The position numbers were made by a program, and so were the translations under genes. A DNA stretch of 64,000 nucleotides from Candidatus Pullichristensenella stercorigallinarum (lineage in GTDB: Bacteria > Bacillota > Clostridia > Christensenellales > Aristaeellaceae). Below, in pieces: positions 1,650 to 30,857 of this stretch. The stretch lies in the NCBI GenBank assembly GCA_018712945.1, contig DVFZ01000051.1:1-64000 (forward strand). Reading direction: 5' to 3'. Every line of letters starts with the position of its first letter. The first letter of the stretch is position 1. The notes under the pieces were generated by a model. That model saw only the letters and a program-made list of their open reading frames with translations, searched no databases and had not been told where the DNA came from.

Positions 1650-1898
1650 CCCCCAAGGGCAATCCCTTGGGGGTCAGAGCGCTGACAAAGCCTGCAAACG
1701 CAAAAATTGCCCTGAACAAAGAGAAATCAGAGGCAATTTCTGCTTCCTGCGTCAGCTGCCATGCAGCCTGCGGTCACTTACGCCTATGTAAGCTCCCTTG
1801 GCTGCAAGTTTGCTTCCTTGTCTTGCAGGCTTTCTCATCCCTCTGGCAGTCTGTTGACTTTGTCAACATCCTGTCCCCCAAGGGCAATCCCTTGGGGG
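1650..1898. repeat. Family 1 hairpin-array intergenic repeat, copy A, bracketed by two identical 24-bp palindromes
   Basis: CCCCCAAGGGCAATCCCTTGGGGG at 1650-1673 and 1875-1898; core TCAGAGCGCTGACAAAGCCTGCAAACGCAAAAATTGCC... shared with the 12.7 and 21.4 kb copies. Confidence 0.9.
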
Positions 1899-8446: not shown

Positions 8447-8680
8447 AAAAAAACCTTCGCCCCTCCTGGGGCGAAGGCATACTTCGCGGTACCACCCAAT
8501 TTCGCCGGAAAATCCGGCAATCTCAGCGCCCGATAACGGGGGCAACCGTTCCAAACTCATCGCCTGAAAAGCTCCGGGGCGAGCTATCCACGCCGCGCCG
8601 CGCCGCCGGTTTGCAGCTACCCCGGCTCTCTGTGTGCGAAAACGGGCGTCTTTTCCCCATCATTGCCATGCCCGTCTATT
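8447..8680 (-). ncRNA. T-box riboswitch leader of leuA
   Basis: Minus strand carries AATTGGGTGGTACCGCG (T-box antiterminator) followed by the GCCTTCGCCCCAGGAGGGGCGAAGG-TTTTTTT terminator; TATAAT (8678-8683) upstream. Confidence 0.9.
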
Positions 8681-12538: not shown

Positions 12539-12551
12539 GCGCAGTGCGCTC

Positions 12552-12682
12552 GGCCAGCGCTGCCGCGTTAGAGAGACGTGCGCCCGCCCCACGAGCAGGG
12601 GGCGGGCGCGCTTTGTTGCGTTTCGTTTGGAGCGGAGGCGGAGGCAGACGCCGGGCGGCTCACGCGCAGGAGCCGCCCGGCT
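12552..12682. repeat. Family 3 repeat, left arm of a ~130-bp inverted repeat
   Basis: GGCCAGCGCTGCCGCGTTAGAG...GCCGGGCGGCTCACGCGCAGGAGCCGCCCGGC; reverse-complement counterpart at 13316-13445. Confidence 0.9.
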
Positions 12683-12700
12683 GCTGTTGTACAGCGAAAG

Positions 12701-12941
12701 CCCCCGCTTCGAGCGGGGGTTCAGAGCGCTGACAAAGCCCGCAAACGCAAAAATTGCCCTGAACAAAGAGAAATCAGGGGCAATTTTTGCTTCCAGCGTC
12801 AGCTGCACATGCAGCCTGCGGTCACTTACGTCCATGTAAGCTCCCTTGGCTACAAGTTTGCTTCCTTGTCTTGCAGGCTTTTGCATCGCTCTGGCAGTCT
12901 GTTGACTTTGTCAACATCCTGAGCCCCCGCTTCGAGCGGGG
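12701..12941. repeat. Family 1 hairpin-array repeat, copy B, bracketed by duplicated hairpin CCCCCGCTTCGAGCGGGG
   Basis: Hairpins at 12701-12719 and 12924-12941; core closely matches copies A and C. Confidence 0.9.
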
Positions 12942-13218
12942 ATCCGGAGAGCTTAAAGTTATGCCCAGAATCGTCAAATCCTTTAGCAGACGGGAGACGT
13001 GCTGGCAAAGAGCTGCTTTGAGCGGCATCCAGGGGAATAGCGCATGTGCCGCAATTCAGAGCGCGTGAGCGCTGCCGGTTTCATGCCCTTACAGGGCTTG
13101 GTCAAACCGCCGGTTTAGCCAGTGCTTTGATAACCTGACGTATCCCTTAAAATCCCTTTGGCTGCCGCGAACTTTCGCACCCCCGCAACTCCGCACTCCC
13201 GCCCCTTCCCGCACCCCC

Positions 13219-13306
13219 GCAACCCCGTAACCCTGCAACTCCGCAACTCCGTAACCCCGCAACTCCGCAACCCCGCAACTCCGCAACCCCGTAACCCCGT
13301 AACCCC
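13219..13306. repeat. 11-unit tandem array of an 8-bp degenerate unit G(C/T)AAC(C/T)C(C/T)
   Basis: GCAACCCC GTAACCCT GCAACTCC GCAACTCC GTAACCCC GCAACTCC GCAACCCC GCAACTCC GCAACCCC GTAACCCC GTAACCCC. Confidence 0.92.
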
Positions 13307-13315
13307 GCAACGCAA

Positions 13316-13445
13316 GCCGGGCGGCTCCTGCGCGTGAGCCGCCCGGCGTCTGTTTGTACTTTCGCCCCAATCGGAACGCAACAAAGCACGCCCGCCCCCG
13401 ACTCATGGGGCGGGCGCGCGTCACTCTAACGCGGCAGCGCTGGCC
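13316..13445. repeat. Family 3 repeat, right (inverted) arm
   Basis: Reverse complement of 12552-12682 with scattered differences. Confidence 0.9.
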
Positions 13446-13452
13446 GTCGATA

Positions 13453-19037: not shown

Positions 19038-19076
19038 CCCATCCCTTGCCTCATCATCTATGGGGCAAGGGATGGG
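19038..19076. terminator. second strong hairpin, related in sequence to the 18912 terminator
   Basis: CCCATCCCTTGCC TCATCATCTAT GGGGCAAGGGATGGG. Confidence 0.6.
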
Positions 19077-19081
19077 TGATT

Positions 19082-19229
19082 CAGTTTGTCAAGATCGTGT
19101 TTTTGACAAGCTCAGAGCGTTGACAAAGCCCGCAAACGCAAACATTGCGAGGCACTTTTGACAATTTTCCAAACCGTCAAAAGCGGCCGGCTTGAAAACC
19201 TTTTGCCGGAAATGATTTTACAGGCGGCC
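19082..19229. repeat. chimeric repeat: Family 1 left end fused to an inverted, truncated Family 2 element
   Basis: CAGAGCGTTGACAAAGCCCGCAAACGCAAACATTGC (Family 1) then GGCACTTTTGACAATTTTCC...CCGGAAATGATTTTACAGGC (reverse complement of Family 2). Confidence 0.8.
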
Positions 19230-21348: not shown

Positions 21349-21579
21349 CGCCCCGGCTTCCGTCGGGGCGTTTTCAGAGCGCTGACAAAGCCTGCAAACG
21401 CAAAAATTGCCCTGATCAATATAGACCAGAGGCAATTTTTGCTTCCTGCGTCAGCTGCACATGCAGCCTGCGGTCACTTACGTCCATGTAAGCTCCCTTG
21501 GCTGCAAGTTTGCTTCCTTGTCTTGCGGGCTTTCTCATCCCTCTGGCAGTCCGTATCCTGACACACCGGCGTAAGCCGG
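21349..21579. repeat. Family 1 hairpin-array repeat, copy C
   Basis: Core TCAGAGCGCTGACAAAGCCTGCAAACGCAAAAATTGCC...; hairpins CGCCCCGGCTTCCGTCGGGGCG (left) and CCGGCGTAAGCCGG (right); lacks the terminal TTGACTTTGTCAA hairpin of A/B. Confidence 0.88.
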
Positions 21580-21588
21580 GGCATTTTG

Positions 21589-22245
21589 CTATTCGGTTGC
21601 GGTTTCTTCCGTGCCGGTGTCCGCGGAAGCGGTGTCCGTCGCGTCCGCCGTGGAGGGCGGGTTGCAGTCCGGGCAGGGCTCCAGGCCCAAATCCAGCGCC
21701 TGACGGATGGTAAGGCTCCGGCCGTTCTGCTGGCCGTTGCAGGTGGGGCCGACGTGGTAGTATTGCGCGTTGTTGTACACGCTGTACACGGTGGTGTTGT
21801 AAATCTGCTCCAGGGTCAGAGCGGCGCTCTCGGGCGCGGGGGCGGTTTCGCCCTCCTCCAACGCCGCGGACTCGGCGGCTTCCTGCTGCATAAGCAGTTC
21901 TTCAATATTGGAAAGCGCGGTAACGGCGTCCTCCTCCGGGGCGTGGGTCGCCGCTACGGGGGAGACTGCCACCGGCTCGACCGTGGGGATATTGGCGGGC
22001 TTGAACAACGGCAGGCACGCCGCCAACATGACCGCAAAAGAAAAAAACGAAGTAATCATCCGGCCGCGCAGCGCAAACGAACCCGTGCGCCAAATCCACA
22101 CCAGGCCCACCGGCGGCAAAAGCAGGCACGCGGCGATTTTCAGCGCCGTGCGCTTTCCGCCGTCCCCCTGGCCGGCAGGCCGACGCATGTTGGGCGAATA
22201 GGCGTTGCTGGAGCCGGTATAGCGGCCGCCGTCGTTTGCTTGCAC
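21589..22245 (-). CDS. membrane protein with a C-terminal YHxGPxC...CPxC zinc-binding-like motif
   Basis: Hydrophobic segments plus VYNNAQYYHVGPTCNGQQNGRSLTIRQALDLGLEPCPDCNP. Confidence 0.6.
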   Translation of the reverse strand: MQANDGGRYTGSSNAYSPNMRRPAGQGDGGKRTALKIAACLLLPPVGLVWIWRTGSFALRGRMITSFFSFAVMLAACLPLFKPANIPTVEPVAVSPVAATHAPEEDAVTALSNIEELLMQQEAAESAALEEGETAPAPESAALTLEQIYNTTVYSVYNNAQYYHVGPTCNGQQNGRSLTIRQALDLGLEPCPDCNPPSTADATDTASADTGTEETATE

Positions 22246-29238: not shown

Positions 29239-29612
29239 ACGCCCCGGCAGACGTTTCCCGTCCGCCGGGGCGTCCAGACTGTCAAAAAGGAAGGCAGGAC
29301 GGCCTGTAAAATCATTTCCGGCGAGAGGTTGAAAACCCGTTGGGTTTTTAAGTCGGCAGAGCCGACCGATTTTGACGATTTGAAAAATCGGCAAAATCGC
29401 CTCATGTGCGGCGGAAATTGGAGAGGGTGGCCGGAGGCGCAGAATCTACAGGATTCTGCGGTTTCGCCAAAGGCGAAACTGCCACGACTCAAATTGAAAA
29501 TTTGAGGCGCGGCACCCGGCGGGGGAGATACTCCCCCGTCCGCCAGCTTGTCAAAAATACTTTTTTGACAAGCTGAAACGCCCCGGCAGACGTTTCCCGT
29601 CCGCCGGGCGTT
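29239..29612. repeat. Family 2 multi-hairpin repeat, copy E, bracketed by duplicated ~34-bp terminator hairpin
   Basis: ACGCCCCGGCAGACGTTTCCCGTCCGCCGGG(G)CGT at 29239-29273 and 29578-29611; inner CTGTCAAAAAGG...CCTGTAAAATCATTTCCGGCG... shared with copy F. Confidence 0.9.
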
Positions 29613-30525: not shown

Positions 30526-30857
30526 GTATACCCTTCGGACTGTCAAAAAAGGTATGCAGGACCGCCTGTAAAATCATTTCCGGCGACATGTGCGGCGGAA
30601 ATGCAGATATTTTTACGCAGGCAAATCCCATTTGCCGGAGGAAAAATATCTACCCAAGGTTGAAAACCTTTCAGGTTTTCAAGTCGGCCAGGGCCGACCA
30701 CTTTTGACAATTTGGAAAATTGGCAAAAGTGCCGCGCAATTTTTGCTTGTGCCGCGCAGCGGCGCGAGCAAAAATTGGAGAGGGTGGTAGTGGCGGGGGA
30801 GCTTGCTTCCCCGTCCACACAGGCTGTCGAACTTTTTCGACAGCCTGGTATACCCTT
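30526..30857. repeat. Family 2 multi-hairpin repeat, copy F, flanked by 10-bp direct repeat GTATACCCTT
   Basis: GTATACCCTT at 30526-30535 and 30848-30857; ends CTGTCAAAAAAGG / GTCGAACTTTTTCGACAGCC are imperfect inverted repeats. Confidence 0.88.

Follow-up and report, generated by a model that had tools for sequence, protein, structure and literature searches.

MITEs bracketed by duplicated target hairpins, and a candidate IS1182-family partner, in Candidatus Pullichristensenella stercorigallinarum

Most cut-and-paste transposases generate a short target duplication of fixed length. Long target duplications of variable length are a feature of IS1634/IS1549 elements, and group IIC introns, which are retroelements composed of a ribozyme and a reverse transcriptase, insert beside intrinsic terminator hairpins without duplicating their target. 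In two papers that cite Siguier et al. 2015 (PMC5678879, PMC4923244), palindromic targets are reported for some members of the IS1182 family. IS1272 and TnSha1/TnSha2 of staphylococci belong to this family (Wan et al. 2017, PMC5678879; Furi et al. 2016, PMC4923244), and the targets of IS1272 are stem-loops of unrelated sequence, 21-85 bp in length (Wan et al. 2017, PMC5678879). Duplication of the whole hairpin was also drawn, as alternative pathway b, in Fig. 13 of the same study (PMC5678879).

Here we analysed a stretch of 64,000 nucleotides (hereafter the window) from a metagenome bin of 2.96 Mb (G000; 130 contigs, 87% complete). Its small repeated elements are miniature inverted-repeat elements (MITEs) whose target hairpins are duplicated; orthologous empty sites in relatives carry single hairpins, and both the ends and the target are shared with an IS1182 element of the same genome. 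MITEs served by an IS1182-type DDE transposase, which joins them at the feet of a hairpin or cruciform and thereby duplicates the whole hairpin, are the best explanation that we can offer, and a highly probable one. The insertion site resembles the terminator-hairpin site of group IIC introns, which differ in lacking a target duplication, and a search of the window's first 32 kb returned no group IIC intron RNA. Like IS1272 and TnSha1/TnSha2, the elements have a stem-loop target of variable length, and some copies lie just 3' of genes; however, IS1272 replaces or deletes the stem-loop without duplication, whereas the stem-loop is duplicated here, matching pathway b of Wan et al. 2017 (PMC5678879). 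No demonstration of whole-hairpin duplication by IS1182 elements was found in the papers searched, and the literature on terminator-targeting insertion sequences yielded nothing beyond Wan 2017 (PMC5678879) and Furi 2016 (PMC4923244). The family is an ordinary one and its target duplication an unusual one; we read it as hairpin-duplicating IS1182 transposition with associated MITEs. The original prediction, made from the letters of the window, that such duplications would be unusual for ordinary transposition was fair, although the likely family already had reported palindrome-targeting members.

The window contains three family-1 elements of ~200 bp (copies A, B and C), two family-2 elements of ~300 bp (E and F) and a remnant (D), and element limits are marked by CAG at the start and CTG at the finish. 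Copy A (1675-1873, + strand, ends CAGAGCGCTGACAAAG / CTTTGTCAACATCCTG) lies between the left copy of its duplicated target (1650-1674, +) and a right hairpin of the same sequence (1875-1899, +), and copy B (12722-12921, +) lies between hairpins at 12701-12718 (+) and 12924-12941 (+). Copy C (21375-21560, +), the right end of which is shortened (...CCGTATCCTG), has a left hairpin at 21349-21370 (+) and a loop-inverted right hairpin at 21564-21589 (-). Copy E (29275-29575, +, ends CAGACTGTCAAAAAGG / CTTTTTTGACAAGCTG) is bracketed by hairpins at 29239-29273 and 29578-29611 (both +). Copy F (30536-30847, +) is flanked by 10-bp direct repeats, GTATACCCTT, at 30526-30535 and 30848-30857 (both +), a short duplication with a palindromic core of just 6 bp that is not a terminator hairpin. 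When the sequence was re-read, all repeats quoted in the original prediction were found in place; its claim of a palindrome pair at every element holds for A, B and E and fails for F, and the flanks of copy C, said to resemble each other in reverse complement, do so as a result of loop inversion. Locus D (19040-19160, no strand assigned), which had been counted among the loci with paired hairpins, consists of a terminator-like hairpin and, after it, degraded element ends in a composite (family 2 from 19082, family 1 from 19113) without clean duplication, and is a nested or truncated remnant rather than a clean copy. Around copy B and an 8-bp tandem array (13192-13311), a 139-nt inverted repeat (86% complementary; 12551-12689 and 13308-13446) was also observed, and the window carries a T-box leader at 8464-8672 on the minus strand (RF00230, 96.8 bits).

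Both families are short, multi-copy and, by end alignment, similar at their ends to an insertion sequence (IS) of the same genome, as is characteristic of MITEs. Family 1 (ends CAGAGCGCTGACAAAG and CAGGATGTTGACAAAG) has at least 40 matches in G000 (87 candidates at first look), and family 2 (ends CAGACTGTCAAAAAGG and CAGCTTGTCAAAAAAG) has 58, many of which are fragments of one copy. With a profile from the G000 copies, 87 unique full-length family-1 copies were collected from G000 and six relatives, and flank statistics were calculated for the 77 that have both flanks, with flanks of different copies serving as the null. Left and right flanks of the same copy had a mean local direct-repeat score of 20.4, against 6.0 for mispaired flanks (n=77); the score exceeded the 99th percentile of the null in 67/77 copies and the 99.9th in 60/77, and unlike flanks occur in about ten family-1 copies. 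The foot of a hairpin is no more than 3 nt away from the element at 93.5% of left and 90.9% of right family-1 flanks, compared with 4.7% of random positions. The original observation thus extends across the genome, far in excess of chance. IS1272-type replacement of the stem-loop is contradicted by the flank duplication in these 67 copies. The duplication is 12-40 bp long (median 27) in family 1, and the repeat abuts both element ends with a 0-nt spacer in 38 of the 67. Among 58 copies that have a hairpin as well as a clear duplication, the duplicated stretch begins at the left hairpin's 5' foot and runs to the 3' foot of the right one, its ends are offset from these feet by mostly no more than 1 nt (mode 0), and its length correlates with that of the hairpin (r = 0.91); the paired hairpins are identical in 25. 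Since the duplication ends at the feet and its length tracks the hairpin, the duplicated unit is the hairpin itself, and a fixed stagger is excluded. For family 2, a strict end pattern matched only E and one other copy, and relaxing it yielded 18 candidates that varied in quality, nine of which have a clear duplication; given these and copy F, family 2 is perhaps the older or the less strict of the two.

The sole DDE_Tnp_1 protein in G000 (L039), with domains DUF772 and DDE_Tnp_1_6, belongs to the IS1182 family (NF033551, 442 bits, cut-off 270). Membership of IS1634/IS1549 was rejected because this only DDE_Tnp_1 match is IS1182 by NCBIfam and the IS1634 model is absent among the matches. Comparison of the transposase with solved structures gave no match. 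As in other members of the family, the score is far above the cut-off, a single ORF and terminal inverted repeats (CAGACCGTTGACAAACC and CAGACCATTGACAAACC) are present and the targets are palindromic; the window copies differ from the family in being non-autonomous MITEs. A protein search of G000 with the transposase returned 18 matches. A single IS copy is full-length and looks intact; the genome otherwise holds many fragments, and a large share of the remaining matches lie at contig ends. The IS ends, CAGACC(G/A)TTGACAAACC, resemble those of the MITEs (motif CAG...TTGACAAA), and one end of the full-length copy begins with CTG, not CAG. Most IS ends in G000 adjoin a hairpin, and at two loci (L192, L198) a single hairpin lies between an end of the IS and an end of a MITE, an arrangement that a common target for the two would produce. 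The left and right hairpins of the full-length IS differ, probably owing to recombination or to misassembly of the metagenome bin. A related intact IS of 1531 bp in a Clostridia MAG (L204) has an exact 31-bp hairpin duplication, with CGTCCCCGCATTCTTTGCGAATGCGGGGGCT on both sides. The shared ends and target mode suggest that the MITEs are mobilised in trans by the IS1182-family transposase. Subterminal hairpins were also noticed inside element ends, both in the IS (L039) and at window positions 1845-1873, 29545-29575 and 30820-30847; at the 5' end of the IS the hairpin precedes AATTTTTT, an arrangement that might terminate transcripts entering from outside.

IS1182-family elements on complete plasmids were sampled for generality, and their ends were located via flanking direct repeats, as an inverted-repeat search misplaces them because the flanking hairpins are inverted repeats too. 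Sixteen plasmid elements are bracketed by a duplicated, mostly identical hairpin, generally A-rich before and T-rich after: in Clostridium, Bacillus subtilis, B. pumilus, Bacillus sp. S3, Alkalihalophilus (ISBspe1), Brevibacillus, Sutcliffiella, Staphylococcus arlettae, S. simulans, Providencia, Salinivibrio, Vibrio, Acinetobacter, Rhizobium, Sphingobium and Aminobacter. ISBspe1, from a plasmid of Alkalihalophilus pseudofirmus OF4, resembles the window MITEs in its CAG... ends, duplicated 20-bp hairpin and outer A- and T-tracts; unlike them it is autonomous, and its transposase is 43.8% identical. In two plasmid elements (Peribacillus and another S. simulans) the left and right hairpins are unlike, and the hairpin duplication of a B. 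thuringiensis plasmid element is partial. No hairpin duplication was found at ISEfa7 or at distant IS1182 members with 26-32% identity (ISCfr1, ISPsp5 and those of M. loti, S. fredii, S. meliloti and Phaeobacter). In a phylogenetic tree, the resolution of which is limited by long branches, the duplicating elements cluster, and ISEfa7 falls inside the cluster. The same pattern on complete plasmids means that an artefact of metagenome assembly is no longer a concern, and the pathway sketched as an IS1182 alternative in 2017 is now supplied with many examples.

As to mechanism, the transposase would select a palindrome with the potential for a hairpin or cruciform structure, which in practice usually means an intrinsic terminator. 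Each 3' end of the element would be joined to a 5' foot of this hairpin, one on either strand. Gap repair would then copy the entire hairpin, such that the duplication equals the hairpin and varies in length with it. In a cruciform the feet should meet at a four-way junction at any arm length, and because they are then together regardless of arm length, an active site of fixed spacing could yield a variable duplication. The same outcome, with duplications that stop at the outer arm edges, is predicted if the inverted arms are read as dyad symmetry in double-stranded DNA and cut outside the arms without any extruded hairpin; we regard this as unlikely though worth keeping in mind, since the target hairpins range from 17 to 40 bp and have no common sequence, which would be difficult to reconcile with duplex reading by a protein whose geometry is fixed. 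The duplication has no fixed length and its extent is apparently dictated by DNA structure, so that these elements offer a clear, testable example of a transposase that responds to shape rather than to sequence. It seems to us somewhat probable that the IS1182 family includes a sizeable branch, together with its MITEs, in which transposition is guided by structure: a DDE transposase joins at the 5' feet of the extruded hairpin, and the hairpin sets the duplication. Since intrinsic terminators are duplicated in the process, such insertions would do little damage even at dozens of terminators in one genome, and the IS1272 mode would differ only in the foot that is joined. If this is true, the family has two outcomes, in which the hairpin is either duplicated or replaced (IS1272).

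The composition around the family-1 copies bears on the choice of target. Beyond the left hairpin there is an excess of A (3.2 of 8 positions) with little T, and beyond the right hairpin an excess of T (3.4 of 8) with little A, as expected from the splitting of a bidirectional terminator. The left copy would thus serve leftward transcription with its outer A-tract and the right copy rightward transcription with its outer T-tract, and termination from either side should persist; the earlier proposal that both neighbours keep a terminator fits these tracts, with preserved termination as the inferred part. Landing between genes and leaving a hairpin on each side suggests a route by which dozens of copies could accumulate in a compact genome, and terminator annotation and 3'-end maps in such genomes should be expected to contain doubled hairpins enclosing an element. 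Since most targets are terminator-like, with these tracts on their outer sides, the element might alternatively be directed to sites of termination (a paused polymerase, an RNA hairpin or an R-loop) and not to a DNA hairpin. Yet hairpins without a U-tract inside other mobile elements are also used (L141, L143), the target at L036 resembles an IS end, and the A/T bias is alike on both sides, which argues for an element without preferred orientation relative to transcription; we hold this alternative to be quite improbable. The use of hairpins without a U-tract suggests that the target is a hairpin rather than a terminator as such. A hairpin alone appears sufficient, and terminators presumably dominate as the commonest strong intergenic palindromes.

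Orthologous sites in relatives reveal the state before insertion. At C22:42039 of G000, a family-2 copy carries ACTCCCCCGCGACATGCGGGGGAG at both flanks (first base excepted), and the orthologous site has one hairpin and no element in G001, G006 and G003; the G001 hairpin (GCGACATGC) has the same loop. G002 has its own family-2 copy at this site, with its own loop-inverted hairpin pair. Copy C likewise corresponds to an empty site in G006 (L069) with a single, diverged hairpin, and copy F is absent from the orthologous site in G006 (L077). Single hairpins at empty sites support the part of the original prediction in which the elements target and duplicate intrinsic terminators, and contradict its other option, in which they generate or carry the flanking hairpins. 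That the hairpins belong to the element, or that two were present before insertion, would account for two hairpins beside each copy, and has almost no probability left: the element is conserved while the hairpin is different at every locus, and the single hairpins exclude a pair that pre-dates the element. In the G003 ortholog of the copy C site (L070, 2640-4200), we also noticed ~30-nt repeats with unlike spacers at CRISPR-like spacing.

Terminator hairpins do mutate, as loop inversions attest, and a second hairpin could in principle form after insertion by gene conversion or slippage, which is hardly credible for a duplication that is near universal, exact at both element ends in 38/67 copies (0 nt offset) and found on unrelated plasmids too. 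As in copy C, the right hairpin is loop-inverted in about 8 of the 77 family-1 copies (including L041, L109, L112, L106, L119 and L163). Loop inversion as a product of insertion was rejected, because an element-free terminator differs in this way between G003 (L211) and G002 (L229), and at L030/L041, an occupied site that appears to be orthologous, only one genome has the inversion; the element-free case makes loop inversion look like an ordinary hairpin mutation. Several copies have two different hairpins (L010, L012, L025, L040 and L133). The left hairpin of L012 is the right hairpin of L010, and the right hairpin of L025 (G000) is the left hairpin of L040 (G002), which suggests recombination between copies or misassembly. 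Arrays of hairpin-element-hairpin-element were also seen at L132, L106 and L040, as if a second element had used the duplicated hairpin.
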